Origin: Aromatoleum toluolicum
Lineage (GTDB): Bacteria; Pseudomonadota; Gammaproteobacteria; Burkholderiales; Rhodocyclaceae
Direction of reading: 5' to 3'
Assembly: GCF_012911005.2 (NCBI RefSeq)
Contig: NZ_WTVS01000001.1
Span: 124,001-188,000, forward strand
DNA: 64,000 bases
Shown here: positions 1 to 14,259 of the stretch, in pieces
How the letters are laid out: each line of letters starts with the position of its first letter
Position numbering within the stretch: the first letter of the stretch is position 1
Position numbers and translations under genes: made by a program
The notes under the pieces: model-generated
Databases searched by the model: none
The model's input: only the letters and a program-made list of their open reading frames with translations
Told to the model about the DNA's origin: nothing

Positions 1-526
1 TGCGGTCGCGGCCCAGCGCCGAGTACTCCGCGCTGGGGAACTGGCCGAGGTGCGTGTGCATCAGCTTGCGCCATTCGTCCTCATCGCGCCGCTGCAGCGC
101 GACGCGGCCATAGCTGTGGCAGCGCCCGCACATCTGCGCCATTTCCTCGTCGGGCGGCGCATCCTGCATGTTCGGCCGCCGCTCGGTCAGAAAGCGGAAC
201 GCTGCGGCCTCGGACGGCGCGAGCCCCTGCCGGTCGGCGAGGTACTTCACCACCGCACGGCGCTCGTCGGGCGTCAGCTCGACCTTGTGCCAGATGCCCA
301 TGCGCACGACGGTCATGTCCCAGCCCTCGGGCGTCTTGCGGACCTCGGGGATGCGCGTGAGTTTGCCGTCCTCGAGGTGACAGCTCGCGCACTTCTTGTC
401 GATCACTTCGCGCCCGGGGTCCTGCGCCGCGACGGCGGGCGTCGTGCCCGCCATCCCCAGCACCAGCGCCACCGCGCCGGCGATGCGCAGATGTCTGCGC
501 GTGTGTTTTATGGTCTCAGGCTTCAC
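1..526 (-). CDS. Quinohemoprotein amine dehydrogenase alpha subunit, N-terminal part (partial)
   Basis: Probable alpha subunit of the periplasmic quinohemoprotein amine dehydrogenase, which oxidises primary amines to aldehydes and passes electrons through its hemes. The gene runs off the left edge, so only about 175 residues are visible. The GTG start at 526 follows a GGAG site. A signal peptide ends near residue 34 (AVAAQ). Two c-type heme motifs are present: CASCH at residues 46-50 and CGRCH at 133-137. The second is followed by HSYGRVALQRRD..EW and by a segment reading HLGQFPSAEY, a pattern I associate with this family's N-terminal diheme domain. The upstream aldehyde dehydrogenase in the same direction fits. 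The partner subunits (gamma peptide, beta propeller, radical SAM maturase) would lie outside the window. A generic diheme cytochrome c is the alternative. Confidence 0.75.
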   Translation of the reverse strand, partial: MKPETIKHTRRHLRIAGAVALVLGMAGTTPAVAAQDPGREVIDKKCASCHLEDGKLTRIPEVRKTPEGWDMTVVRMGIWHKVELTPDERRAVVKYLADRQGLAPSEAAAFRFLTERRPNMQDAPPDEEMAQMCGRCHSYGRVALQRRDEDEWRKLMHTHLGQFPSAEYSALGRDR

Positions 527-593
527 TTCTGTCTCCACTCTCCGGTGAGGAAATCCGCCGCCCGGTCAATCGCGACAAGGCGGCGCCCCGCAC

Positions 594-2096
594 TCACAGC
601 GCCATGATCACGGACTTGGATTCGGTGTACAGGTCGAGCACCGCGCGCCCCATCTCGCGTCCGATGCCGGACTGCTTGAAGCCGCCGAAGGGCATCGCGT
701 TGTCGAGGATGTTGTGGCAGTTCACCCACACGGTGCCGGCCTGGATCTTCGGGATCAGGCGATGCACGCGCGACAGGTCGTTCGACCAGATGCTCGCCGC
801 GAGCCCGTAGGGGGTGTCGTTCGCACGCCGCGCGACCTCGTCCAGATCGTCGTACGGCATCGCGACGACGACCGGCCCGAAGATCTCCTCGCGCACGACC
901 TTCATGTCGTCGGTCGTATCGACCAGCACCGTCGGCTTCACGAAGTAGCCTGCGCCCTCGCCCGCCGCGCCGCCGGCCGCGGCCCGTGCGCCTTCGGCGA
1001 AGCCGCTTTCGATGTAGCCGAGCACGCGTTTCTGCTGCGTCGCGGACACCAACGGGCCGATCTGCGTGGTCGGGTCGATGCCGGCGCCGAGCTTCATGCC
1101 GGCGGCGATGCCCGAGAGGCCTTCGACGACCTCGTCGAAACGGCTCTTATGCACGAAGAGGCGCGAACCGGCCGTACACACCTGCCCCTGGTTGAAGAAG
1201 ATCGCCTGCGCCGCACCCGCCGCCGCCTGGCTGACGTCCGCGTCGTCGAGCACGATCACCGGGCTCTTGCCGCCCAATTCCAGCGACACGCGGGTCATGT
1301 TGTCTAGCGCCGCCTTGCCGACCAGCTTGCCGATCTCGGTCGAACCGGTGAAGGCGACTTTCTCGACCCCCTTGTGCGACGCGAGCGCCGCGCCCGCCGT
1401 ATGGCCGAGGCCGGTCACGACGTTGAGCACGCCTGCCGGATAGCCCGCCTCCAGCGCCAGCTCGGCGAAACGCAGTGCGGAGAGCGGCGTCTCCTCGGCC
1501 GGCTTCAGCACCATCGTGCAGCCCGTCGCGAGCGCCGGTGCCACTTTCCACGCCGCCATCAGCAGCGGGAAGTTCCACGGGATGATCGCGCCGACCACCC
1601 CGACCGGCTCGCGCCGCGTAAAGCCGAAGAACTCGCGGTCGCGGATGATGGGCACCGAGACGTCCATCGTCGAACCTTCGATCTTGGTCGCCCAGCCCGC
1701 CATGTAGCGCAGGAAATCGACCACCAGCGCGACATCGACGTGGCGCGCCATCGTCACCGGCTTGCCGTTGTCGAGCGATTCGATCTCGGCCAGCTCCTGC
1801 GCGTTCGCCTCGACCAGATCCGCGAACTTAAGCAGCAGGCGCTCGCGATCGACGGGCCGCATCTTCGGCCAGTCACCCGACTCGAAGGCGCGGCGCGCGG
1901 CAGCGACCGCGCGGTCGATGTCTTCCGCCCCGCCTGCCGGCACGCTGGCGAATTTCTCGCCGCTGGCCGGATCGACCACCGCCAGCGTCTCGCCGCTCGC
2001 CGCCTCGACCCACTCGGCGCCGATCAGCATGCGCCGGGGATTCTCGAGAAAGCGCCGTGTGCCGTCGCTCAGCAGTTGTCCGTGGTAACGCTCCAT
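594..2096 (-). CDS. NAD(P)-dependent aldehyde dehydrogenase, phenylacetaldehyde dehydrogenase-like
   Basis: A 500-residue aldehyde dehydrogenase of normal family length, expected in the cytoplasm and oxidising an aldehyde to its acid. Visible catalytic features are PWNFP with Asn175, the coenzyme loop FTGSTEIG at about 249-256, the general base Glu273 in LELGGKSP and the nucleophile Cys307 in FNQGQVCTAGSR. The ATG follows a GAGGAGA site. It sits 67 bases upstream of the amine dehydrogenase gene in the same direction, so the natural substrate is probably the aldehyde made from the amine. The sequence resembles the phenylacetaldehyde/aromatic aldehyde branch (FeaB/PadA/StyD), but substrate cannot be fixed from sequence alone. 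Confidence 0.9.
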   Translation of the reverse strand: MERYHGQLLSDGTRRFLENPRRMLIGAEWVEAASGETLAVVDPASGEKFASVPAGGAEDIDRAVAAARRAFESGDWPKMRPVDRERLLLKFADLVEANAQELAEIESLDNGKPVTMARHVDVALVVDFLRYMAGWATKIEGSTMDVSVPIIRDREFFGFTRREPVGVVGAIIPWNFPLLMAAWKVAPALATGCTMVLKPAEETPLSALRFAELALEAGYPAGVLNVVTGLGHTAGAALASHKGVEKVAFTGSTEIGKLVGKAALDNMTRVSLELGGKSPVIVLDDADVSQAAAGAAQAIFFNQGQVCTAGSRLFVHKSRFDEVVEGLSGIAAGMKLGAGIDPTTQIGPLVSATQQKRVLGYIESGFAEGARAAAGGAAGEGAGYFVKPTVLVDTTDDMKVVREEIFGPVVVAMPYDDLDEVARRANDTPYGLAASIWSNDLSRVHRLIPKIQAGTVWVNCHNILDNAMPFGGFKQSGIGREMGRAVLDLYTESKSVIMAL

Positions 2097-2174
2097 GTAT
2101 CTGTCTCCTCTGTCTTATTGGTTGGTTTGTTGGTTTGATCTGGAAGGCGGATGAGCCGACGCCCGGCGTGCGGA

Positions 2175-2654
2175 TCAGGCGTCCGGCCCATCGTCGATCA
2201 GCCCGGCACGCGCTACCGCCGTGGCCCGCGCCGCATCGACTGCGTCCCGATCGAGGTCGAGCTGCTGCGCGAGCCGCGACACCAGTCGTTCCTCGAGCCG
2301 CTCGAGGTCGCCGTCCGCATAGGCGACCTCCCACAGCATCGTCAGCACTTCGCGCCGCTCGGCGGCGTTGAAGCCCGAACGCACCGCTTCCGCGAACTCC
2401 CAGTCATCGAGCACCTCGGCGAAGCGCTCGTCGGCCACCGCAACCAGTTGCTGCGCAGCCTCCTCGGGCAGCGCGAAGTGCTCGCGCAGCAGTCGGGTGA
2501 TGGCAGCGTGCTCGCGCTCGCTGGTGCGGTGATCGATGTACATCGCTTCCAGCAGCAGCACCGCGACGGCGATGTGGCGGCGTTCGAACGGTCCGGTCTC
2601 CAGCCCTTCGGCCTGGAGTTCGCCGGACAGCAGGGCCATCAGTTTGGTCAGCAT
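2175..2654 (-). CDS. TerB-like domain protein
   Basis: A 159-residue soluble, mainly helical acidic protein with no signal peptide. It matches the TerB/tellurite-resistance-like fold in pattern: HIAVAVLLLEAMYIDH near residues 27-42 followed by E/D-rich helices and a second repeat around MLWEVAYADGDLERLEE (about 105-121). The paired acidic D/E patches are typical of metal-binding TerB-like proteins. It lies 26 bases after the beta-propeller gene and 78 bases before the aldehyde dehydrogenase gene, so it is most likely co-transcribed. Its role here is unknown; tellurite resistance itself is unlikely because no other ter genes are present. Confidence 0.7.
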   Translation of the reverse strand: MLTKLMALLSGELQAEGLETGPFERRHIAVAVLLLEAMYIDHRTSEREHAAITRLLREHFALPEEAAQQLVAVADERFAEVLDDWEFAEAVRSGFNAAERREVLTMLWEVAYADGDLERLEERLVSRLAQQLDLDRDAVDAARATAVARAGLIDDGPDA

Positions 2655-2680
2655 GCAGGGGTCTCCGGTGTTGTTGCTTC

Positions 2681-3652
2681 TTATCGGGCAGGCGCCAGGC
2701 GCTCAACGCCGAGCTGTCCGGCAACCACCACCGCTCCGGTCGGGGCCGCCATCACTGCTGCAAGGTTCTGCCGATCGGGGCGGATCTCGAGCTGCAGCGG
2801 TCCGCCATCGCTGCTGCGCAGGACCACGCCGCCGGCGCCGACGACGATCAGGCCGCCGTTCGCGAGCGCAAGGCCCGAGGTCAGCGACTGCTCGGTCCCG
2901 GTCTCGCGCACTTGCCAGCTGTTGCCGCCGTCTCGACTCGCGATCACCTTGCCGCTCATCCCCAGCAGCACGACCTCGCCGTCGCCGCGTTCGAGCCCGC
3001 TCCACAGCGACCCCGACACGCCGGTCGCGAGCTTCGTCCAGGTCGCACCGCGGTCGGTCGAACGGAACGCGAGCCCGATTTCGGCGGCGAGAAAGAGCTT
3101 GCCGTCGCGCGTCGAGAAGATGTGGTTGAGGTGCAAGTCGGCGTCATGCCCGCTACCAACCGCCATCGGCGCCCAGCCGCGCCCGCCGTCGTTCGTCACG
3201 AAGGCCGCGCCGTAGGCCCCGACCGCGTAGCCGCGCTGCGCATCAGTGAAATGCACCGACAGCAGCACCGGCTTGTCGTCGAGCGTCGCCTGCAGCTGCC
3301 AGTTCGCGCCGCCGTCGGTCGTCACGAGGATCACGCCACCGTGCCCCACGGCCCAGCCGCGACTGTCATCGACGAAATGCACCGCCGTCAGCAACAGGCT
3401 GACCGGCACCTCTGCCTGCTGCCAGGTCTTGCCCTCGTCGGTCGAGCGCACGATCGTGCCGTAGTCGCCCACCGCAACCAACGCATTGCCCGCGCGCACC
3501 AGTCCCGTCACCGGCACTTTCGCCGCCAGCCGCGCCTTCATTGCCGGGGCGGGCACCTTGGCGGCATCGGCCGGGCCGGCCGCGAACACCGCCGCGCTGG
3601 TTGCCAAACACAGGCAGACCAGGGTCCGCCCGATTCGATTGCTTGTTTTCAT
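2681..3652 (-). CDS. YCF48/BNR-repeat periplasmic beta-propeller
   Basis: A 323-residue exported protein. A signal peptide is followed by an Ala-rich cleavage region near residue 30 (ADAAKV). The rest is a series of repeats of the S/T-x-D-x-G-x-x-W type (STDEGKTW, TTDGGANW, TNDGGRGW, STDRGATW, SRDGGNSW), which mark the YCF48/HCF136-like seven-bladed propeller. In photosynthetic organisms that family helps photosystem II assembly, but this is a heterotroph and the gene starts 10 bases after the MMPL transporter gene. I infer a periplasmic accessory or scaffold for that transporter. Substrate and partners are not known from sequence. Confidence 0.8.
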   Translation of the reverse strand: MKTSNRIGRTLVCLCLATSAAVFAAGPADAAKVPAPAMKARLAAKVPVTGLVRAGNALVAVGDYGTIVRSTDEGKTWQQAEVPVSLLLTAVHFVDDSRGWAVGHGGVILVTTDGGANWQLQATLDDKPVLLSVHFTDAQRGYAVGAYGAAFVTNDGGRGWAPMAVGSGHDADLHLNHIFSTRDGKLFLAAEIGLAFRSTDRGATWTKLATGVSGSLWSGLERGDGEVVLLGMSGKVIASRDGGNSWQVRETGTEQSLTSGLALANGGLIVVGAGGVVLRSSDGGPLQLEIRPDRQNLAAVMAAPTGAVVVAGQLGVERLAPAR

Positions 3653-3662
3653 CGGGTTCCCC

Positions 3663-6026
3663 TCAATGGGCCATCAGCGGCGCGCGCACCGGACCGCGCC
3701 GCGGGATCAGCACGTCGAGCGTCACCGCCAGCGCCGGCAGCAGCGTGATCGCCATGATCATGTTCATCATGAACATGAAGGTCAGCAGCATCCCCATGTC
3801 GGCCTGGAACTTCAGCGCCGAGAACGACCAGGTCGCGACACCGATCGACAGCGTCACGGCCGTGAACACGGTCGCCACGCCGATCTCGCGCAAGGCCTGC
3901 TTGAACGCGGTGACGATGTCCTCGCCGTGCGCGAGATGCATCTGCAGCCGGTTGTAGATGTAGAACGCGTAATCGACGCCGATCCCCACCGCCAGCACCA
4001 TCACCGGCAGCGTCGCGACCGTCAGGCCGATGTCGAGCTCCTTCATGAACCAGTAGCCGAGGAAGGTCGCCAGCGTCAGCGGCACGCAGCACGCCACCAT
4101 CGCGCGCCAGTCGCGATACACCGCGAACACCAGCACCAGGATCGTCGCGTACACGTAGAGCATCATCGGCAGCTCGGAGTGCTCGACGACCTCGTTGGTC
4201 GCCGCCTGCACACCGGCGTTGCCGCTCGCCAGCCGCACGGTGACGCCCGGGAACGGCTGCATCTCGCGGAAGTGCTTCACCGCGGCGACGACCTCCTTGA
4301 TCGTCGACGCCTTGTGGTCGGCGAGATACAGATTCACCGGCAGCAGCGTGCAGTCCGCGTTGAAGAGGCGCATGCCTTCGGGCACCTGGCGCACCGCCTC
4401 GCCGAGCGTCAGCTCCTCCTGCGGCAGCGCCGCCCATTTCGGATTGCCCTCGTTCACCCCGGACGCCGCGAGCTTGGTCATGCCCGGCAGCGACTGCGCC
4501 GACAGCACGCCCGGCACGTTCGCCAGATACCAGCTCAAGCGGTCGAGATGGCTCATCACGTCGTGCCGGTAACAGCCGTCCGCGGGCGTCTCAACGACCA
4601 CCGTCAGCATGTCCAGCCCCAGCGCATAGCGGGCGACGACCGCCTCGACGTCCTGGTTGTAGCGCGAATCGTCGTGCAACTCCGGCGCGCCCGGCAGCAC
4701 ATGGCCGACGTGCCGCCCCTGGCTCTGCCACACCGCCACCACCATCAGCGCGAGGCACACCAGCGTGCCGATCGCCGCATTGCGCGGGTTCGCGATATGC
4801 ACGCCGATGGACGCCATCATGCGATTGCGCAGCCCTTCGACCTTGCTCGCACGCAGCACGAAGGCGTCGTCGAAGCGGAAGTAGCTCGCCACCACCGGCA
4901 GCATGATCAGGTTCGTGACGATCTTGTACGCCACACCCACCGACGCGGTGATCGCCAGCTCGCGGATCATCGGAATCGGCACCAGCACCAGCGTCGCGAA
5001 GCCGACGAAGGCCGTGATCAGCGCCAGCGTCCCCGGCACCAGCAGCCCGGTGAAGCTGCGGCTCGCCGCGGTGTAGCCGTCGGCGCCGTTGATGACCTCC
5101 TTCGCGATGTAATTCACCTGCTGGATGCCATGCGACACGCCGATCGCAAACACCAGGAAGGGCACCAGGATCGCCAGCGGATCCAGCCCGAAGCCCAGCA
5201 GCGTGATCGTGCCGAACTGCCACACCACCGACACCAGCGAACACGCCAGCGGCAGGAAGGTAAGCATCCACGACCGCGTATACCAATACACGGCCGCCGC
5301 GGTCAGCAGGAAGGCGAGCGCAAAGAATTCGATGACGCTGGTCGCCCCTTCCGAGATGTCCCCCATCTGCTTGGCGAAGCCGATGATGCGGATGCGGATG
5401 TCGTCATCACTGAACGCATCGCGCACTTCGCGCTCCAGCCGCTGGCTGAACTCCGAGTAATCCAGCCGCGCGCCGGTCTGCGGGTCGGGATCGGCCAGCT
5501 CGGCGACCACCATCGCCGACGACGAATCGTTCGCGACCAGACTGCCGATGAAGCCACCGACGATCGTGCGCTCGCGGATCGCGGTGATGTTCTCCGGCGT
5601 CAGCGCCTTCACCGTCACATCGCCGCCGATCACGTCCTCGGCCTTCATCCCCTCCTCGGTGATCTGCACCGCACGGGTGTTCGGCGTCCACAAGGACGTC
5701 ACCGTGCGCCGATCGACGCCCTTCATGAAGAACAGCGCCTGCGTCACGTCGTACAGCTTCGTGAGTGCCTTCTCGTTCCAGATGTCGCCGTTCTTCGCCT
5801 CGACGGTCACGATGATGCGGTTCGCGCCGAACAGCACCTCGCGATACTGGTTGAAGGTCTGGATGTATTCGTGGTTCTGCGGCAACTGCTTGTCGAAGCC
5901 CGCGCTCATCTCGAGGCGCGACGCGAACAGCGCCATCACCGCGGTAAAGCCGAGCAGCGCGAGCAGGATCGGCAGGCGGTGCCTGAAGCACGCGCGCTGC
6001 ATCGCCAGCACCAGTTTCTCGATCAT
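3663..6026 (-). CDS. MMPL/RND-family transporter
   Basis: A 787-residue inner-membrane protein of the MMPL (hydrophobe/amphiphile) branch of the RND superfamily. It has two similar halves, each with one membrane segment (about 18-36 and 416-433), a large periplasmic domain (about 40-230 and 435-620), and a five-helix bundle. The second half carries GIGVDYAFYIYNR with Asp685-Tyr686, the usual proton-relay motif. The equivalent place in the first half reads AIGVSHG, so Ser298-His299 replace Asp-Tyr. It is embedded between the YCF48-like gene and the DUF1302/DUF1329 genes, a combination that suggests trans-envelope movement of a hydrophobic compound. The direction of transport cannot be told. 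Confidence 0.88.
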   Translation of the reverse strand: MIEKLVLAMQRACFRHRLPILLALLGFTAVMALFASRLEMSAGFDKQLPQNHEYIQTFNQYREVLFGANRIIVTVEAKNGDIWNEKALTKLYDVTQALFFMKGVDRRTVTSLWTPNTRAVQITEEGMKAEDVIGGDVTVKALTPENITAIRERTIVGGFIGSLVANDSSSAMVVAELADPDPQTGARLDYSEFSQRLEREVRDAFSDDDIRIRIIGFAKQMGDISEGATSVIEFFALAFLLTAAAVYWYTRSWMLTFLPLACSLVSVVWQFGTITLLGFGLDPLAILVPFLVFAIGVSHGIQQVNYIAKEVINGADGYTAASRSFTGLLVPGTLALITAFVGFATLVLVPIPMIRELAITASVGVAYKIVTNLIMLPVVASYFRFDDAFVLRASKVEGLRNRMMASIGVHIANPRNAAIGTLVCLALMVVAVWQSQGRHVGHVLPGAPELHDDSRYNQDVEAVVARYALGLDMLTVVVETPADGCYRHDVMSHLDRLSWYLANVPGVLSAQSLPGMTKLAASGVNEGNPKWAALPQEELTLGEAVRQVPEGMRLFNADCTLLPVNLYLADHKASTIKEVVAAVKHFREMQPFPGVTVRLASGNAGVQAATNEVVEHSELPMMLYVYATILVLVFAVYRDWRAMVACCVPLTLATFLGYWFMKELDIGLTVATLPVMVLAVGIGVDYAFYIYNRLQMHLAHGEDIVTAFKQALREIGVATVFTAVTLSIGVATWSFSALKFQADMGMLLTFMFMMNMIMAITLLPALAVTLDVLIPRRGPVRAPLMAH

Positions 6027-6087
6027 GTTGGGGTATCCGTTATGCCGGCACCGCGGAAGTCACGCCTCCGCAGCGCCGGCGCTTGCA

Positions 6088-7890
6088 TCAGAACGAGTAC
6101 GAAACGCTGGCCGAGAGGAAGTCCCGGTCACGCATCAGGTTGTTGGCGCCGCCGCCGTAGAAGGTCACCCACTGGATCGCCCCCTTCCACGCGTCGCGGT
6201 AGTTCGCGAACAGCGACAGCGTCAGCGCCTTGCGGCCCTCGACGAAGGGCAGCCCGTTCGGCGTCGTGCCATCGACGTCGTGGTACCAGTCGATCTGCGG
6301 CGTCAGCGTCACGCCGGTGCCGGCGACGTTCGGGTAGTTCAGCGCCGCCTCCACCACGTAGCCCCACGACGTCTTGTCCGGCAGCGCATAGTTCGGCAGG
6401 AAGTACGGCGTCACCCCGCTTGTGTCGAGCCCCGGGTAATGCGCCACCGCCGCCTCGGCGAGGATGAAGCCGTCCGTCGCCCCCAGCGCCTTCGCGAATC
6501 CGCCGAGCGGATCGTTATGCGAGAAGGTGTAGAAGCCCGTCAGGTGGAACTGGTACTTCTCCTCCTCGACGAAACCCGGATGGCTGCCGTGCTCGTAGAT
6601 GCTGAACTTGCTCGACGGCCCGCCGAAGATGTTGCCGAAGGGCACCGTCGGGTCGATGCCGACGCTGTCGTTGGGCCGGTATGACAGCTCCGCCCCGACC
6701 GCGATGTTCGCGAGCTTGGTGTTCGCCGAGATCGCGTACAGATCCTTGTCCTCGCCATAAGCGATGAAGTACCCGGTGACCGCCCCCGCGGTGTTGCCCG
6801 TGAAGCCGAGGAAGGGCAGCTTGTCGTGGTAGCGCTGGTACGTGAAGGCAAACTCGGTGTCGATCTCCTCCGCGTTGTAGCGGAAGTTCACGCCGTACTG
6901 ACCGGTCTTCTTCGGCTTGTTGGTCCCCAGATAGGGCACCGCGATGCCCGCCGCGACGGCGTCCGCGTCCGATATCCCCGGATTGTCGCCGCAGTGTCCG
7001 GTCGGCAGCCCCGCGCAGGCGCCCGGTCCGGCGAAGTCCTCGATGATGCTCGTCGGCACGTATGCGACGCGCCGCCCCTTGCCCAGCACGTCTGCGGCCG
7101 AGAAGAAGGTCCCCACCGGATCGAACTTGAAACCATTCCAGCCGAACTGGTAGTAGCCTTCGACGCCGAGCTTCTCGGTCAGCCCCAGCGAAGCCGACAG
7201 CATCGGCGCCGGAATGAAGATCTCCTTCAACTGCGTGCCCGGCACGTGGAACTTCTGCAGGTCGATCGCGTTGATCTGGTTCACGCCACCGAGGATGAAG
7301 ATGTCCTCGCCCCAGGAGATCACCTGGTTGCCGAACTTCACCTTGCCCGGCTGATCGCCCAGGCTGAACGTCTTCGCAACCCACAGGTCGAGCACCGTCA
7401 TCTCGCCGGAAGCCTCATCGGCCACCGACGTGCGCCGCGTGTCGTCCGACTTCGTATCGACGAACCAGTTGAAGCGCGCCAGCGCGCTCCAGCCGCCCGG
7501 GTACTTCAACGACAGGTCGTGCGTGCCCTTCAGCACCGCCGAGACGATGTCGCCCTTCTTGTAGTTCAGGTTGCCGTCATCGAAGTTCGTGAAGTTGAAG
7601 TCGGCGTTTGCATAGCCGGCACCGTTGGTCAGGTTGTACACCTGCGACAAGTCGTTGTTCGTGCCGTTGTTGCAGCCGCCGCTGTCGTTGCCGAGCGTCT
7701 TGCAGCCCGCCGACTGCAAGCGGCTCATCACGCCGTACGAGACGGTACTGTCGAAACTGCCCGAGATCCCCTCCTCGGAACCGAAGCGGAACGCATGGCT
7801 CGCCGGCGACCAGCACGCCGCCGCGACCGCCACAGCCAGAATCGACGGCGCGAGCGCGCCCCGACGATGCGAAATCGTCCTTGTTTTCAT
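6088..7890 (-). CDS. DUF1302 family outer-membrane protein
   Basis: A 600-residue exported protein. An N-terminal signal peptide ends near residue 33 (ASHA). The mature part is rich in alternating aromatic/polar strands and Gly/Asn loops and ends in SVSYSF, the terminal aromatic expected of a Bam-inserted beta-barrel. The overall pattern is that of DUF1302, a family often found beside DUF1329 and MMPL genes in catabolic clusters of Proteobacteria. A Cys-containing loop lies near residues 62-74. The ATG is preceded by a GGGAGAA site. It is 27 bases downstream of the DUF1329 gene. A role as a porin or adhesin for a hydrophobic substrate is inference. Confidence 0.85.
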   Translation of the reverse strand: MKTRTISHRRGALAPSILAVAVAAACWSPASHAFRFGSEEGISGSFDSTVSYGVMSRLQSAGCKTLGNDSGGCNNGTNNDLSQVYNLTNGAGYANADFNFTNFDDGNLNYKKGDIVSAVLKGTHDLSLKYPGGWSALARFNWFVDTKSDDTRRTSVADEASGEMTVLDLWVAKTFSLGDQPGKVKFGNQVISWGEDIFILGGVNQINAIDLQKFHVPGTQLKEIFIPAPMLSASLGLTEKLGVEGYYQFGWNGFKFDPVGTFFSAADVLGKGRRVAYVPTSIIEDFAGPGACAGLPTGHCGDNPGISDADAVAAGIAVPYLGTNKPKKTGQYGVNFRYNAEEIDTEFAFTYQRYHDKLPFLGFTGNTAGAVTGYFIAYGEDKDLYAISANTKLANIAVGAELSYRPNDSVGIDPTVPFGNIFGGPSSKFSIYEHGSHPGFVEEEKYQFHLTGFYTFSHNDPLGGFAKALGATDGFILAEAAVAHYPGLDTSGVTPYFLPNYALPDKTSWGYVVEAALNYPNVAGTGVTLTPQIDWYHDVDGTTPNGLPFVEGRKALTLSLFANYRDAWKGAIQWVTFYGGGANNLMRDRDFLSASVSYSF

Positions 7891-7917
7891 CGAGATTCTC
7901 CCTTGAGTGGGCTGTGG

Positions 7918-9297
7918 TCAGCGCTCGCCGCGGCGGCGCATTTCGTCCTGGGTGAAGTTCGCTGCCGTCACGCGGCCGTCCTTCGCCGCCGTCAGGTCCA
8001 GCACTTCGCCTTCGGCAGTCCAGTTGTCGACCACGTAGCGGCGCGCCACCAGGTCATACATCTGGGTCTCGTAGGCCATGCACGCCCCGACGTCAGGCGC
8101 GGCCCACAGGCTGCCTTCCTGCACACGCCACAGGTTGCCCTTGGCGTCGTACATATCCACCTGCAGCAAGGCCCAGGAGTCCTCGTCGAAGTGGAACACC
8201 CGCTTCGCGAAGGAATGGCGCTTGTCCGCCTTCACCGTCGCCTCGACCACCCACACGCGGTGCGGCTCGTAGCGCATCAGATCGCGATTGACATACTCGG
8301 GCCCGAGCATGTCCTTGAACTTCTGCTTCTTGTTGATCAGCTTGTAGGAGTTGTACGGCACGTACATCTCCTTCTTGCCCACCAGCTTGTAGTCGTAACG
8401 GTCCAGTGCGCCCGTGAACATGTTGATCTGGTCGACGAAGTACAGGTTGTCGAAGCCCGCGATCGGATTGTCATAGGCAAAGGTCGGCGAGCGACGCACG
8501 CGGCGCTGACCGGGGAAGTAGATCCACGCATCCTGCGGCTTGTCGATGTAGGCGTGGATCAGGTAACCCTCGCCCGCGCGCGACGGCGGCGTCAGCACGT
8601 CGTACAGCAGCTTCGACTCCACGCCACCCACGTCCGCCGGCCCGGTCACCTTCGGGTCGTTGAACGGATACATCTCGTACGCCCACTGCTTGTTCTCGAC
8701 GTAGCTGCCATCCTTCTCCGGCATCAGCGCCGAGATCTGCGCGCGGCGGCCGAGGCCCGTGTAGCGCAGCTTGTAGTTCCACATCACCTCGGCACCCGAC
8801 TTCGGCACCGGGAAAGGCACGCCGGCGCCGAACACCTGCTCGAGCTGCCAGCCGTCCGCGCCCAGCTTCGCGGCCGTCGCGTTCTTCTTCGTCTGCGTGG
8901 CGACGAAATCCGGCACCGGACAGCTGCGCCGGCTCGGATAGACGTCCATGCGGTAGCCCTTGTATGCCTTGATCAGCGCAAGCTGGCCGGCCGAGAGCTT
9001 GTCCGCGTACTTGTCGACGTTGGCCGCGTCGATCGAGAACAGCGGCTTGTCGTCCTTGAAGGGATCCAGGTGTCCCGGCTTCCAGCCGGCGGGCACCTGC
9101 GTCATCCCGCCGCTCCACGCCGGAATCGCACCATCCTTGCTCGCTGCGGCCTCCGCGCCGATCGGCGTCAGGGCCTTGCCCAGCGTTGCCGCCTCGGCCT
9201 CGGTCGCCGCCGCCCGCGCGCCCCCGCTGCCCAGCACCGCCGCGAGCGTGATGCAGATGAGCGCGCGGCGAGGCGAGCTCGTCGTCGTCTTGATCAT
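7918..9297 (-). CDS. DUF1329 family periplasmic protein
   Basis: A 459-residue exported protein with a signal peptide ending near residue 30 (GGARA). The family layout is visible: an N-terminal GKALTPIGAE..DGAIPAW segment, an AYKGYRMDVYPSRRSC region near 150-165, and a C-terminal half with many aromatic beta strands. DUF1329 members are often described as having a LolA/LolB-like lipid-binding fold, so this may carry a hydrophobic ligand across the periplasm. It is the first gene of the minus-strand run, with a GAGGAGA site just before its ATG, and faces a divergent AraC-type regulator across 300 bases. Confidence 0.85.
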   Translation of the reverse strand: MIKTTTSSPRRALICITLAAVLGSGGARAAATEAEAATLGKALTPIGAEAAASKDGAIPAWSGGMTQVPAGWKPGHLDPFKDDKPLFSIDAANVDKYADKLSAGQLALIKAYKGYRMDVYPSRRSCPVPDFVATQTKKNATAAKLGADGWQLEQVFGAGVPFPVPKSGAEVMWNYKLRYTGLGRRAQISALMPEKDGSYVENKQWAYEMYPFNDPKVTGPADVGGVESKLLYDVLTPPSRAGEGYLIHAYIDKPQDAWIYFPGQRRVRRSPTFAYDNPIAGFDNLYFVDQINMFTGALDRYDYKLVGKKEMYVPYNSYKLINKKQKFKDMLGPEYVNRDLMRYEPHRVWVVEATVKADKRHSFAKRVFHFDEDSWALLQVDMYDAKGNLWRVQEGSLWAAPDVGACMAYETQMYDLVARRYVVDNWTAEGEVLDLTAAKDGRVTAANFTQDEMRRRGER

Positions 9298-9597
9298 GTT
9301 GTCGTCTCCTCACTTGATGTGATGTGCCGTTCGATTCGGCTTTTTTTCCGGTTGTCCTCGGCCGCGTCCTCGCGCAGCGGTACAACCGATGGAGGCGATT
9401 GTATGAAGCGGTTCCCCGGAGCCGTTATCCGAAATCGGCAATCCGCGACGAGATGCCGGGGACGCCCCCCGACAGGCCGCGCGACACGGTTCATTAGAAA
9501 GATTTCACTGTTCCGCGTGGGACTTTTGTATTAGTTTTGAAAGATAATCAAAGCCATAACTACAAACGGCCCTTTCCGGTCAGGAGACAATCGGGAA
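9298..9597. promoter_or_regulatory. Divergent promoter region between DUF1329 operon and AraC/EutR-like regulator
   Basis: A 300-base gap with no credible gene between two divergent genes, so it should hold promoters in both directions and the operator of the regulator. A GATAAT hexamer at 9543-9548 could be the -10 box of the regulator, but no good -35 lies 17 bases upstream. The stretch around 9481-9560 is notably more A/T-rich than its surroundings. I saw no sigma-54 -24/-12 pair and no clear direct repeat, so operator positions are left open. Confidence 0.4.
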
Positions 9598-10620
9598 ATG
9601 GATGCTCACACCCTCGCCGGGCGCAACGGCATCGCGCGCACTGCGGGCGACGACGCGTATTCCGTCGTACATCTCGACACCCGCGACGCAGACGACCACG
9701 CAGCCTGCCTGCAACACTGGAATCAGCGCTACGACCAGCTTTCGGCCGGCACCTTCACGGGCCGATTCGACGAATTCTGGTTCGACAATGTCCAAGTGTT
9801 CCGCGAACGGACCAATCAGGTCGTGCACGAGATCGGCACATCTTGGGAAGGCTCGCGCACGATCGGCGTGCCCGTCGAAATCGACGGCACCGGCTGGTAC
9901 TGCGGCGAACTCTGCAGCCTCGACTCGATCATCACGCTCAAAGGCGGCGAAGACCTCGACTACCGCACGCCACGCCTGCACGACATAGTCGCCGTGACGA
10001 CGGACAACGAAGCCTTCACTGACTACGCACTGCGCGTCGAACATCGCGACCTGGAAGCCGAAATCGGCAAGCGGCGCATCATTCCAGCCACGGCAGACCA
10101 GGCCGCGACGCTGCGCAGCTTCCTCCTCACCGTGCTTGCCAGCCTCGAGGCCACCCCGGAATTGCTGCGCCATCCGCAGATGCGCAAGGGCCTCGAACAG
10201 GCGATCTACGGCAGCATCGTCGCCGCCATCACGCCGCGCGAAGACACGCCGCGCCCGGCCACCCCCTGCCGCACCCGCCAGCTCATCGTCGACCGCGCCC
10301 GCGAGTACATGCGCGCGCACATCGACGCACCGATCACCGTCGCCGACCTATGCACCGAGCTGCGCGTCTCCCGCCGCACGCTGCAGTACAGCTTCCAGGA
10401 CATCCTCAACCTGAACCCCGTCAGCTTCCTGCGGGCCTTGCGCCTCAACGGCGTGCGACGCGAACTCAAGTCCGCCGACCCGGCGAGCCACCAGATCGCC
10501 GACATCGCCGCGCGCTGGGGCTTCTGGCACCTGTCGCACTTCGCGTCGGACTACCGCGCGATGTTCGGTGAGCTGCCCTCGGACACCCTGCGCCAAGCCA
10601 CGCCCTCCACCCACACATGA
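9598..10620 (+). CDS. AraC-family transcriptional regulator, EutR-like layout
   Basis: A 340-residue regulator. The C-terminal region (about 225-335) holds the AraC DNA-binding domain with two helix-turn-helices: VADLCTELRVSRRTLQ at 248-263 and IADIAARWGFWHLSHFASDY at 300-319. The N-terminal part resembles the ethanolamine regulator EutR in line-up: a W-x-QRYDQL-GTF-G-F motif near 41-58 and DNVQVFRE at 63-70. An AGGAGA site precedes the ATG. It is divergent from the transport/amine-oxidation run and is its likely activator. EutR senses an amine together with cobalamin; which ligand this one senses is unknown. Confidence 0.85.
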   Translation: MDAHTLAGRNGIARTAGDDAYSVVHLDTRDADDHAACLQHWNQRYDQLSAGTFTGRFDEFWFDNVQVFRERTNQVVHEIGTSWEGSRTIGVPVEIDGTGWYCGELCSLDSIITLKGGEDLDYRTPRLHDIVAVTTDNEAFTDYALRVEHRDLEAEIGKRRIIPATADQAATLRSFLLTVLASLEATPELLRHPQMRKGLEQAIYGSIVAAITPREDTPRPATPCRTRQLIVDRAREYMRAHIDAPITVADLCTELRVSRRTLQYSFQDILNLNPVSFLRALRLNGVRRELKSADPASHQIADIAARWGFWHLSHFASDYRAMFGELPSDTLRQATPSTHT

Positions 10621-10634
10621 TCCGGTGAAACCCC

Positions 10635-12668
10635 TCAGGCCACCTTGAAACGGCTCACGTCGGCAAGCAGGCTCCCCGCCAGGCTCTCCAGCCGATCCGC
10701 CGTGCGGTGGCTCTCGACCGCAATCGCGCTGTTCTCCTCGGCCATGCGCGCGATCGTCTCCACGTTGCGCGCAATCTCGGTCGACGCAACGCTCTGCTCG
10801 CGCAAGGCGTCGGAAATCTCGGCCACCGTCTCCACGACCCGGCCCGCTTCGTCGCGAATGCTCGACATCGCCGTCCCCGCCTGCTGGGCGCGCGCAACGC
10901 CCGCATTCACCTGCGTCACGCCGCCCTGCATGCTCTCCACGGCATCGCGCGCATCGCGCTGAATCGCCCCGACCATCTGGGCGATCTCCTGCGTCGACTG
11001 CGTCGTGCGCTCGGCCAGCTTGCGCACCTCGTCCGCCACCACCGCGAAGCCACGCCCCTGCTCGCCCGCGCGCGCCGCCTCGATCGCCGCATTCAGCGCC
11101 AGCAGGTTGGTCTGGTCGGCTATCTCCTTGATCACATTCACGATCGCCGAAATCTGCTCCGAGCTGCGGTCGAGTTCGGTAATCGTATCGGCTGACCCGG
11201 ACACCGCGCGCGCAATCTCCCCGATATCGGCAACCACCGACTCGACGATTTCGCCCCCTTCTCCCGACAGCTTGCCCGAGCGCTGGGCGAGCTCGTTGGC
11301 ATTGCTCGCATTGCCGGCGATATGGTCGATGCCCACCGTCATCTCTTCCACCGCCGCCGCCATGCTCGACGCCGCCTCGCTCTGCCGTTGCGAAGCGGTG
11401 TCGATCTGGCGAGCCGACTCCACCATGCCGCGCGCCGTCTCAGCCACCTGCCCCGAATTGCTCTGGATGTTCGTGATCAGGCGACACATCGTCGACGCCA
11501 TGTCGTTGAAGCTGTCGGCGATCATGTGCAGCTCGTCGCGGGCCTGCAGCCTGATCGCCGTCGTCAGGTCACCGGCCGCCAGCCGGTGGCTGCCTTCGGC
11601 GAGCCGCTTCACGCTGCCCATGATCGACAGATACACCCCGACGGACAGGTAGGCGATCGCCACCGCGACGACCACCAGCACGGCGACGTTGAAATGCAGC
11701 ACCCGCTGCGCCTCGGCGATGCGCTGCCGCAACAGCTCGTCCAGCGTCGGCAGCAGGATTTCGTTCATCTGCCGGTAGCCCACCGTGATCGCCTCGGTCG
11801 TCATCCCGAAGTACGCCGACGACGACGTGCTCTGCAGGTCGCCCGCGAGGATCTGGCGCACCACCCCGCTCACGGTCGCCAGCTTGCCGTTCATTTCCGC
11901 GAGCGACGACTCCAGCCGCTGTCCGAGGTCCGGCCGCTGTGCAACAATCTTGCGGATGTTGGTCTCGAGATCGCTCACCGCCTCGGTCACGTCACCCGCG
12001 AGCACGCTCACGCCGAGCTTGCCCGCATCGTCGATCGTGCCGCGCGCGAGCGCCGCCGACCCCCTGGCGCGCAACTGGCCCGTGCGCTCCAGCAGGTAGG
12101 GCATGCGGATCACCGCCGTCGACATCAGGTAGTAGCTGTCCTGCTGCGGATCGAAAGTCAGGCCGTACTCGTCCGCGACCGCGATCTGGAAATCCAGCAG
12201 ATTGTCGATCAGCCGCGTATGCGTCTGGAAATTCTCGGGCTGGCTCAGCTTGAGCCCCTCCTGCTTCAGCGCACTCCAGCGCGAACGGATGTCGCTCCAC
12301 CCGCTGCTGCGCACGGATTGCGGCAGCGCCGCCTCCAGCGTCTCGAGCGCACGATCAACCTCGACGGCCTTGTCTGCGCGCATCGCCCTCGCACTCTCCA
12401 AGCCCCCGAGCATCGCCGACGACAGCCCGCGGTGCTGCTGCATCAGTTCGACCGCCCTGGAGATCGGCCGCGACAGCTCCGACGCCACGAGTTCGCGCTC
12501 CGTCCGCTCGATCGTCGCATTCAACTGGCGTGCCAAGGTCAGCATCAGGCTGGCAAAGGCCACCAGGATGATCAGGCCCAGCAGGCCGAACTTCACCGGG
12601 TAACTGCAGCGATTCATCAGCCCCACTGCAGGTGCAAAAAGTACTTTCACGATGCGCTCCACAAACAT
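10635..12668 (-). CDS. Methyl-accepting chemotaxis protein
   Basis: A chemoreceptor of about 677 residues. It has a first membrane helix near residues 22-42, a helical periplasmic sensor of about 280 residues, a second helix near 325-350, a HAMP domain (ending ..[13 protein letters not shown]) and a long signalling coiled coil. The hairpin tip reads [22 protein letters not shown], split here as [14 protein letters not shown] and [13 protein letters not shown], which is the strongly conserved CheA/CheW contact. The ATG at 12668 has an AAGG site 10 bases upstream; a GTG at 12677 is in frame but too close to that site. It ends 14 bases from the convergent AraC-type gene. The ligand is unknown. 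Confidence 0.93.
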
Positions 12669-12987
12669 GATCCGCACGCCTTCGGGCCGTCACCGGAGAA
12701 CCAACACATAGTCCGGCGCGGGGCATGCTGGCGATATAAGCGTATGGAGAAATACCGGAAAAGTACGTGATCCGCATCAAGAATCCATGCACGCCACATG
12801 CATTTGTCACAGAACCGGAAATTCCCGTGCCCCTCCCCGCTTGCATCCGCCGCGCGGACTTTCCCAATCCCGCATGCACGGGGGGGCAAAACACCTATTG
12901 ATCGGCTCGCGGCAAGCGCCCAGAATACTCGTCGGTATCATGCCGGCTGCACAGCAGCCTCCGGCACTGCTGTCAGGACAAGCACAC
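12669..12987. promoter_or_regulatory. Divergent intergenic region, chemoreceptor and HD-GYP-like gene
   Basis: About 320 bases between two divergent genes. It is open in the plus-strand frame of the downstream gene, and two earlier in-frame ATGs (12787 and 12940) exist, but neither has a ribosome-binding site and the translated extension is low in family-like features. The region must hold promoters for both genes. I could not single out a convincing -35/-10 pair or a flagellar sigma-28 site. Confidence 0.3.
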
Positions 12988-14259
12988 ATGCTCTTCAATA
13001 CGGTCAACCAGCACTGCCTGGAGCACATCGTCGAACTCGCGGAAACGCGGACGGTGGAAGCTGCAGAAGACATCTACGACGAACGCGGGATCAAGCTCTG
13101 GGCGAAGGGCAAGCCCGTATCCGCCGACCTGCAGGAAAAACTGCTGCGCCGCAAACTCGCGAAGCCGCTCGAAGCGACCCTTGCCGTCGAGGGCGCCGTC
13201 GCATTCGGCGATGTCGCCAGCGCATGCATGGCACACATCGAAGAGAACCCGCTGCTCGCCCGCATCGTCAACCGCGACGCGATCGGGCTCATCAACGGCA
13301 TGCGCAACGTACCGCTCCCGCAGCCGCTGCGCCTTCTGCTCACCACCGCGCATGCCAAGGGCACAGGCAGCTTCAAGCATGCACAGACCACCGTGATCAT
13401 CTGCGCCGGAATCGCCGCGCGTCTGAACGCGACCGATCACGACGCCCAACTCCTGCTGATGGCGGCCCTGGTGCACGACCTCGGCGAGATGTACATCAAC
13501 CCCGACTACCTGAACAACAGTTACCGGCTCAAACCGGGAGAATGGAAGCACGTGGCAAGCCACCCGCGCGTCGGCCAGCTCCTCATCGCCGAACTCACGA
13601 CGCTGCCGGCCGCTGTCGGCCAGTGCGTCGCGCACCATCATGAACGCCTCGACGGCAGCGGCTACCCGAACCAGGTGGACCGCAGCGGGCACAGCCGGCT
13701 CGGTGCGTGGCTCGCGGTCGCCGATTCCGTCGGCGCCATCCTGTCGCGCGGCGACGACGGCGCCGCCCTGCGCGCCTCGCTGGCGCTGCGCATCGTCCCC
13801 GAAGAATTCGACCACGATGCGGTCGCGGTCATCACGCAAGCCTTGCGCAATGGCGACGACGTGTTCGGGACAACGCCGGAGGGGAGCTTCAACGCACGCG
13901 TCCAGGAAAGCTGCCGACGCATCAACGCCGCCATGGCAGAGGCCGAATCGCTGATCGCACAGGCCCCGACGCCCTTCGTGCGACATACGGCCACCAATGC
14001 GCTCGCCCTGCTCCACAACCTGCTCAAGTCGCTGCGCTCCACCGGCGTCATGGAGGCCGATTCGCTCGGCGTCGGCAACCTCGACAGCGAACTCATCGCC
14101 GAAATCAATCTCGTGATCCGCGAAATCGAATGGCGCATGCGCAACCTCGCGCGCAACCTGCACCTGCGCGCCGAAGCGCAGACGGAAGGGTGTCCCCTCG
14201 AGCGAATCGCCCCGCTGATCCGCGCGCTCGACGGCAGCAGCAATCCCGCGACCGACTGA
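12988..14259 (+). CDS. HD-GYP-like phosphohydrolase domain protein
   Basis: A 423-residue cytoplasmic protein. An N-terminal helical region (about 1-110) is followed by an HD-GYP-like domain with HDLGE and HHERLDGSGYP motifs (near residues 165 and 215) and a C-terminal helical tail of about 110 residues. HD-GYP enzymes hydrolyse cyclic di-GMP. Here the first motif is HDLGE rather than HDIGK, and the usual pattern after GYP is weakly kept, so activity is uncertain. The ATG at 12988 was chosen because AGGA lies 9 bases upstream. The next gene encodes an HDOD protein 86 bases later. Confidence 0.78.
   Translation: MLFNTVNQHCLEHIVELAETRTVEAAEDIYDERGIKLWAKGKPVSADLQEKLLRRKLAKPLEATLAVEGAVAFGDVASACMAHIEENPLLARIVNRDAIGLINGMRNVPLPQPLRLLLTTAHAKGTGSFKHAQTTVIICAGIAARLNATDHDAQLLLMAALVHDLGEMYINPDYLNNSYRLKPGEWKHVASHPRVGQLLIAELTTLPAAVGQCVAHHHERLDGSGYPNQVDRSGHSRLGAWLAVADSVGAILSRGDDGAALRASLALRIVPEEFDHDAVAVITQALRNGDDVFGTTPEGSFNARVQESCRRINAAMAEAESLIAQAPTPFVRHTATNALALLHNLLKSLRSTGVMEADSLGVGNLDSELIAEINLVIREIEWRMRNLARNLHLRAEAQTEGCPLERIAPLIRALDGSSNPATD

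Follow-up and report, generated by a model that had tools for sequence, protein, structure and literature searches.

A U32 protein pair as candidate for an oxygen-independent cofactor step in the quinohemoprotein amine dehydrogenase operon of Aromatoleum toluolicum

The operon and its probable regulator

The DNA analysed here, referred to as the window, is a stretch of 64,000 nucleotides from Aromatoleum toluolicum (contig NZ_WTVS01000001.1, positions 124,001 to 188,000), and the subject is a minus-strand operon that runs out over its left end. The operon joins a four-gene transport cassette to the genes of a quinohemoprotein amine dehydrogenase (QHNDH), and ends in two genes for which the names QhpU and QhpV were coined in the present analysis. 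The DNA to the left was examined as part of a longer stretch, L009, such that a window position is the L009 position minus 16000. Window genes were identified from lists of open reading frames together with Pfam and NCBIfam scans. An earlier note on this DNA had claimed seven closely spaced minus-strand genes separated by 10-78 bases, and the frames and family scans confirm the genes, their coordinates and the gaps, which from right to left are 27, 61, 10, 26, 78, and 55 bases. It had also pointed to the DNA left of position 1 for the gamma and beta subunits and the radical SAM maturase, and QhpC, QhpB, and QhpD are found there, in L009. To the left of the window the run comprises the rest of QhpA, then QhpD, C, B, F, and E, and QhpV and QhpU as the last two genes. 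From right to left the features are:

9598-10620, plus strand: AraC-family regulator, probable QhpR (55-64% identity to AraC proteins at qhp loci L144, L146, L156, and L091)
9398-9441, minus strand: putative operator before the first gene, with the element TTGCCGATTTCGGATAAC at 9441-9424 and, 20 bases further, TACAAT at 9403-9398
7918-9297, minus strand: AmeB-like periplasmic protein, DUF1329 (PF07044)
6088-7890, minus strand: AmeA-like outer-membrane protein, DUF1302 (PF06980)
3663-6026, minus strand: AmeD-like transporter of the resistance-nodulation-division (RND) type, MMPL (PF03176)
2681-3652, minus strand: AmeC-like YCF48/BNR protein (PF14870)
2175-2654, minus strand: TerB-like protein (PF05099)
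594-2096, minus strand: aldehyde dehydrogenase, StyD-like (best NCBIfam model StyD)
1-538, minus strand: QhpA (QHNDH alpha), first 179 residues, the gene continuing past the left window end
L009 14919-16538, minus strand: QhpA, whole (736.9 bits, cut-off 274)
L009 13469-14899, minus strand: QhpD (748 bits, cut-off 453)
L009 13152-13472, minus strand: QhpC (gamma), read from the sequence, residues checked
L009 12051-13148, minus strand: QhpB (beta; 505.6 bits, cut-off 223)
L009 10054-11856, start uncertain, minus strand: QhpF-like ABC exporter (ABC exporter match; QhpF by position)
L009 9362-10057, minus strand: QhpE (245.8 bits, cut-off 165)
L009 8463-9365, minus strand: QhpV, 300 residues, four invariant Cys; UbiV-like partner
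L009 7415-8461, minus strand: QhpU, U32 (PF01136), UbiU-like

QhpA, QhpB, QhpD, and QhpE are all above the curated cut-offs. QhpC retains the leader, Cys37, Trp43, and the thioether residues, and its nine key positions are identical in 101 of 102 loci (the loci overlap between genomes), the other having an unread Asp49. Among the models listed, the aldehyde dehydrogenase fits StyD (NF045735) best, at 753.8 bits, which is below the cut-off of 850. A promoter scan returned 0 sites, and a terminator scan returned 7, as against 5.3 in shuffled sequence, of which none falls between the TerB and aldehyde dehydrogenase genes.

The locus resembles the described qhp operon (PMC7876137; here and below, comparisons refer to the available parts of the cited papers) in that QhpA, B, C, D, and E form one run with an ABC exporter, an AraC regulator is present, and the residues that form cysteine tryptophylquinone (CTQ) are conserved. 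It differs in that the transport four, TerB, and usually the aldehyde dehydrogenase come first, and in that there is no qhpG in the operon, QhpV and QhpU following QhpE instead. Described qhp members vary in arrangement, and the L009 operon without qhpG is hence a variant. A 446-residue frame at L009 8463-9803 was considered as QhpG and rejected: it has no PDB match and overlaps QhpE, and the real gene there is the 300-residue QhpV.

The divergent gene had been described in the earlier note as AraC/EutR-like. The AraC gene is confirmed, whereas EutR (NF007522), which is its best NCBIfam model, scores 197 bits, under the cut-off of 319, and was rejected as the identity. The protein is instead most similar to the AraC proteins at the other qhp loci listed above, as against 36-38% identity to those of L077-L079, L115, L116, and L140, and is hence QhpR-like. 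The operator core TTTCGGATAAC has a single match in the 64 kb window, allowing up to 1 mismatch, and is exact in all 17 Aromatoleum loci compared below; TACAAT is kept in 14 of the 17, with TAGAAT in L063 and L074 and CAGAAT in L070. The core also occurs just upstream of qhpA in other qhp loci, exact in L144 and L156 and with one mismatch in L103 and L146, while most other loci of the named-genome scan (the best 79 of at least 405 confirmed candidates) lack it in that position. The likeness to AraC proteins of qhp loci and the core upstream of qhpA elsewhere suggest that the regulator is probably QhpR, and we infer that it contacts the putative operator.

A transport cassette joined to amine oxidation

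The region of the orthologous DUF1329 gene was compared in 16 other Aromatoleum genomes, giving a set of 17 with the window's own. These are one clade, and hence not independent. The order regulator, AmeB, AmeA, AmeD, AmeC, TerB, QhpA, D, C, B, and onward is found in 16 of the 17 genomes, as far as the stretches reach. This includes 15 of the 16 others, and the arrangement is therefore more than chance. QhpA is present in all 17. In each of them a tryptophylquinone amine dehydrogenase is encoded next to the transport four and TerB, namely a QHNDH in 16 and an aromatic amine dehydrogenase in the remaining one (G574), and TerB accompanies the cassette throughout. Of the 16 QHNDH-type loci, 11 have an aldehyde dehydrogenase gene between TerB and QhpA; it is missing from L064, L066, L067, L068, and L071 (5 of the 17), and is thus dispensable for the arrangement. 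QHNDH is rare nearby: 1 of 200 genomes in an order sample exceeds the QhpA cut-off, namely the window's own, and QhpD was found in 2 of 369 genomes of a class sample.

The locus of G574 (L070) retains the transport four, TerB, and the aldehyde dehydrogenase, and qhp does not adjoin them; a divergent qhp locus (L077, QhpA identity 47%) is located on a separate contig. An aromatic amine dehydrogenase cluster (L070 15112-18453) occupies the interval from the regulator and its operator core to AmeB. Its heavy chain matches 2h3x with E 5.5e-84, its MauD is above the cut-off, and a cytochrome c is also present. The light chain belongs to PF02975, with its NCBIfam model below the cut-off, and a MauE-like frame was read by eye only. 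We read this as the replacement of one tryptophylquinone enzyme by another, an exchange that suggests a shared substrate class, namely aromatic amines. The earlier note had held that loss of the catabolic genes from relatives that keep the transport genes would speak against a functional link. G574 is the only genome where this is found, and only in form, as the aromatic amine dehydrogenase there favours the amine reading. The cluster, with its MauD, needs its own maturation of tryptophan tryptophylquinone.

The window's own genome contains 14 DUF1329 genes. The other 13 loci comprise five complete four-gene cassettes (L199-L203), one that is cut by a contig end, and seven that are partial or divergent; TerB was not found in the stretches searched at these loci. 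With so many cassettes in one genome, the transport and amine genes could be mere neighbours, one cassette happening to abut qhp. We consider this very improbable, given that the adjacency in 17 of 17 genomes survives both the swap of the amine dehydrogenase and the loss of the aldehyde dehydrogenase in five. A single operator precedes AmeB, and a search of the genus loci with this motif gave no further copy of the core. In addition, three Ame genes also lie near qhp, divergently, in a locus (L148) from a metagenome-assembled genome (MAG). Chance adjacency was rejected on the genus synteny. Because of the genus-wide adjacency, the QhpR-like regulator, and an operator core that is exact in 17 of 17, it is concluded on sequence grounds that transport and amine oxidation are one unit, each module being of a known kind. 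The single unit thus stands from the earlier proposal, in which delivery across the envelope was coupled to periplasmic amine oxidation; the aldehyde dehydrogenase is not an essential part of it.

In composition the transport four correspond to AmeABCD of Castellaniella defragrans (PMC6394551), in which DUF1302, DUF1329, YCF48/COG4447, and HAE3-type RND proteins occur in one cassette placed beside catabolic genes, and proteins of all four kinds are present here. The best NCBIfam model for the MMPL protein is HAE3 (TIGR00921), at 163.7 bits, below the cut-off of 351.9. The comparison is one of gene make-up; the cassette here is joined to amine oxidation rather than to monoterpenes, and TerB has been added. 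The earlier interpretation is modified in that the four match AmeABCD in make-up and the rest is the known qhp operon (PMC7876137).

Deletion of AmeABCD in C. defragrans lowered monoterpene tolerance and raised accumulation of Nile Red (PMC6394551). By analogy, export and tolerance is favoured as the more likely role of the transport four. Growth of P. putida on Tween 20, on the other hand, needs a set of DUF1302, DUF1329, periplasmic, and efflux-type proteins (PMC10866462), a parallel on which the four might serve to take a hydrophobic amine up through the outer membrane, instead of exporting the amine or its aldehyde. The Castellaniella phenotype is against import, which we hold to be possible and the less probable direction.

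The QhpU-QhpV pair

In the described route to CTQ, the flavoprotein QhpG dihydroxylates Trp43 of QhpC using O2 (PMC7876137). QhpG was searched for with a profile of ten QhpG proteins; the protein of L077 matches 7ctq with E 1.2e-58. It is present in 7 of the 17 Aromatoleum genomes: in G568 and G573 beside a second, divergent qhp, in G574 beside its single qhp locus, and in the window's own genome (G000), G565, G578, and G580 at a site unlinked to qhp. It was not found in the other 10 (for G569 and G576, among the matches listed). In all 10 of these genomes the CTQ and thioether residues of QhpC are conserved, and QhpV and QhpU are present, from which we infer an O2-independent hydroxylation of tryptophan in QhpC.

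QhpU contains a U32 domain (PF01136, 141.3 bits, cut-off 22.4) and matches a profile of UbiU from the genus with Prob 99.1. By sequence no PDB relative was found, and the structure model (pLDDT, a predicted local distance score, of 73) is closest by Foldseek to the U32 structure 5d88. QhpV has no Pfam or NCBIfam match. It carries four invariant Cys, in the pattern CXnCX18CX3C, in 12 sequences, and matches the QhpU profile weakly over 89 columns (E 2.2e-5, Prob 76). The QhpV model (pLDDT 77) is barrel-like. VIA-align 2 places 5d88 as first chain, tied with CutC (for 5d88, Z 12.7, root mean square deviation 3.7, 197 aligned), and Foldseek finds general barrels, with one row at E below 0.001. By sequence against the PDB there is a single row at E 0.33, taken as noise.

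These features recall UbiU-UbiV, which hydroxylate without O2 and are likewise an adjacent gene pair of one U32 protein and a partner with four Cys in a CXnCXnCX3C pattern (PMC6747719). The two pairs are not the same: QhpU scores 75.7 bits against the UbiU cut-off of 440 (NF047963), the spacing in QhpV is X18 whereas UbiV has CXnCX12CX3C (PMC6747719), and the genus genomes encode canonical UbiU and UbiV separately, at other positions.

QhpU and QhpV were checked in the 16 Aromatoleum genomes with a main qhp locus and are present in all 16. They follow QhpE in 15; in G569 they are at the end of another contig, the qhp contig ending after QhpE. Apart from the main genus locus, the pair is near qhp in L086 (a Glaciimonas MAG), L106, L123, L148 (a betaproteobacterial MAG), L156 (Thauera sp. 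28), L078, and L079, and L127 has a cut piece of QhpV near qhp. QhpG is also near qhp in L078, L079, L106, L123, L127, and L156, and in the Glaciimonas genome it is on the contig of QhpU, some 6 kb past that gene.

For genomes outside the genus, 22 with qhp, chosen for having no QhpG near qhp or for having the pair, were searched whole (L144 was left out). QhpG matches were obtained in 19, of which G611 has a paralogue-level match only and G606 a fragment; no match was found in G528, G601 (the genome of L148), and G612. Among 50 qhp genomes, QhpV was found in eight (G528, G600-G605, and G624). Of the four genomes outside the genus that lack a full or fragmentary QhpG, G528 and G601 have QhpV, and in G611 and G612 it was not found. 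The genes for QhpV and QhpU are neighbours in G528, at a distance of about 32 kb from qhpD. In samples taken without regard to qhp, for which few candidates per genome were scored, QhpV was found in 2 of 369 genomes of the class, which are also the two with QhpD, and in 1 of 398 genomes of the phylum, the window's own. A Fisher test of missing QhpG against QhpV gives 12/14 versus 12/52 (p 3e-5), with G606 dropped and G611 counted as without QhpG; this is not relied on, as the genus is one clade.

It is proposed that QhpU-QhpV form an O2-independent peptidyl-tryptophan dihydroxylase, a U32 pair that would supply Trp43 of QhpC with its two oxygens, prephenate being the probable donor, for the formation of CTQ without air. 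We consider this moderately probable. The proposal is based on a parallel, in which the same kind of ring hydroxylation is carried out either by an O2-dependent flavoprotein or by an O2-free U32 pair. The pair would be alone in most of the Aromatoleum genomes examined and beside QhpG in Thauera and others, much as UbiUV occur beside the flavin hydroxylases of ubiquinone.

Several results weigh against it. The profile match between QhpV and UbiV is not significant (E 0.25), though the first Cys and the C-x3-C-L-G stretch line up in it. In two genomes with qhp, G611 and G612, the searches detected no QhpV and no complete QhpG. QhpG and QhpV occur together in 12 of the genomes examined, of which six are in the genus (among them those with L078 and L079) and six outside it (G600, G602-G605, and G624), where the combination is frequent. 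The window's own genome has an unlinked QhpG (7ctq, E 3.8e-125), therefore QhpUV need not be the sole route there, and the organism may have both. The coexistence, and the two genomes with qhp alone, would also fit a different explanation, that QhpU-QhpV carry out another hydroxylation or Fe-S chemistry, and that an unrelated monooxygenase hydroxylates Trp43 where QhpG is absent. This appears rather unlikely, as QhpV is found in the class sample only in two qhp genomes, is closely linked to qhpE in 15 genomes, and pairs with a U32 protein, the characterised U32 oxidases being catalysts of O2-independent hydroxylation, with prephenate suggested as the oxygen source (PMC11574389).

Some further observations were made. 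G611 is a gammaproteobacterial MAG and G612 is Thauera phenylacetica (qhp loci L137 and L140), and both keep the QhpC residues. The unlinked QhpG of the window's organism (L181 8562-10178, G000:C237) lies between an RND efflux-like set, identified by eye, and a 1967-residue RTX-repeat protein, and that of G565 is similarly placed. The second, divergent qhp loci of G568 and G573 (L078 and L079) carry QhpG plus the QhpUV pair. To the right of the regulator, at 10635-14259 of the window, are a chemoreceptor-like gene (minus strand) and a signalling-protein-like gene (plus strand), read by eye from the translations.

Proposed function and significance

The best explanation of the whole, which we regard as fairly probable, is a probably QhpR-controlled amine oxidation operon with Ame-like transport and O2-free oxygenation of tryptophan by QhpUV. 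The substrate would be an aromatic primary amine of hydrophobic character, with an arylethylamine such as 2-phenylethylamine as the likeliest candidate, and QHNDH would convert it to the aldehyde in the periplasm. Handling of this amine or of the aldehyde across the envelope would be the task of the AmeABCD-like complex, with export and tolerance more likely than import. The final step on the aldehyde would fall to the StyD-like dehydrogenase or, in genomes without that gene, to one encoded at another locus. The CTQ in QhpC would be built by QhpD and QhpE as known, and the oxygenation of Trp43, which elsewhere is due to O2-dependent QhpG, could here proceed without O2 by means of QhpU-QhpV.

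The qhp operon and AmeABCD are already described, and the new part is the QhpU-QhpV gene pair. A search of the available literature for papers joining QHNDH or tryptophylquinone with U32 proteins found none (for tryptophylquinone with U32, UbiU or Aromatoleum, among the matches listed). A paper by Schmitt et al. of 2019 (doi 10.1128/JB.00281-19) is reportedly titled for two QHNDHs in anaerobic aromatic amine degradation by Aromatoleum aromaticum EbN1, and is a place where the U32 genes or the transport four may already be discussed. The locus of that strain is probably orthologous to the one described here.

According to that title, QHNDHs start anaerobic amine degradation in the genus, yet the described cofactor route uses O2. 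The presence of a U32 pair in the operon, together with the failure to detect QhpG in 10 of 17 genomes, provides a testable solution to the puzzle of a cofactor made without air, and the cofactor step is well suggested by the sequences compared. The swap of the amine dehydrogenase next to an unchanged transport module ties the DUF1302/DUF1329/RND system to aromatic amines. If the proposal for the pair is true, the substrates of U32 oxidases, so far small molecules and RNA, would come to include a protein, and QhpUV would explain how QHNDH can be made in the absence of air.

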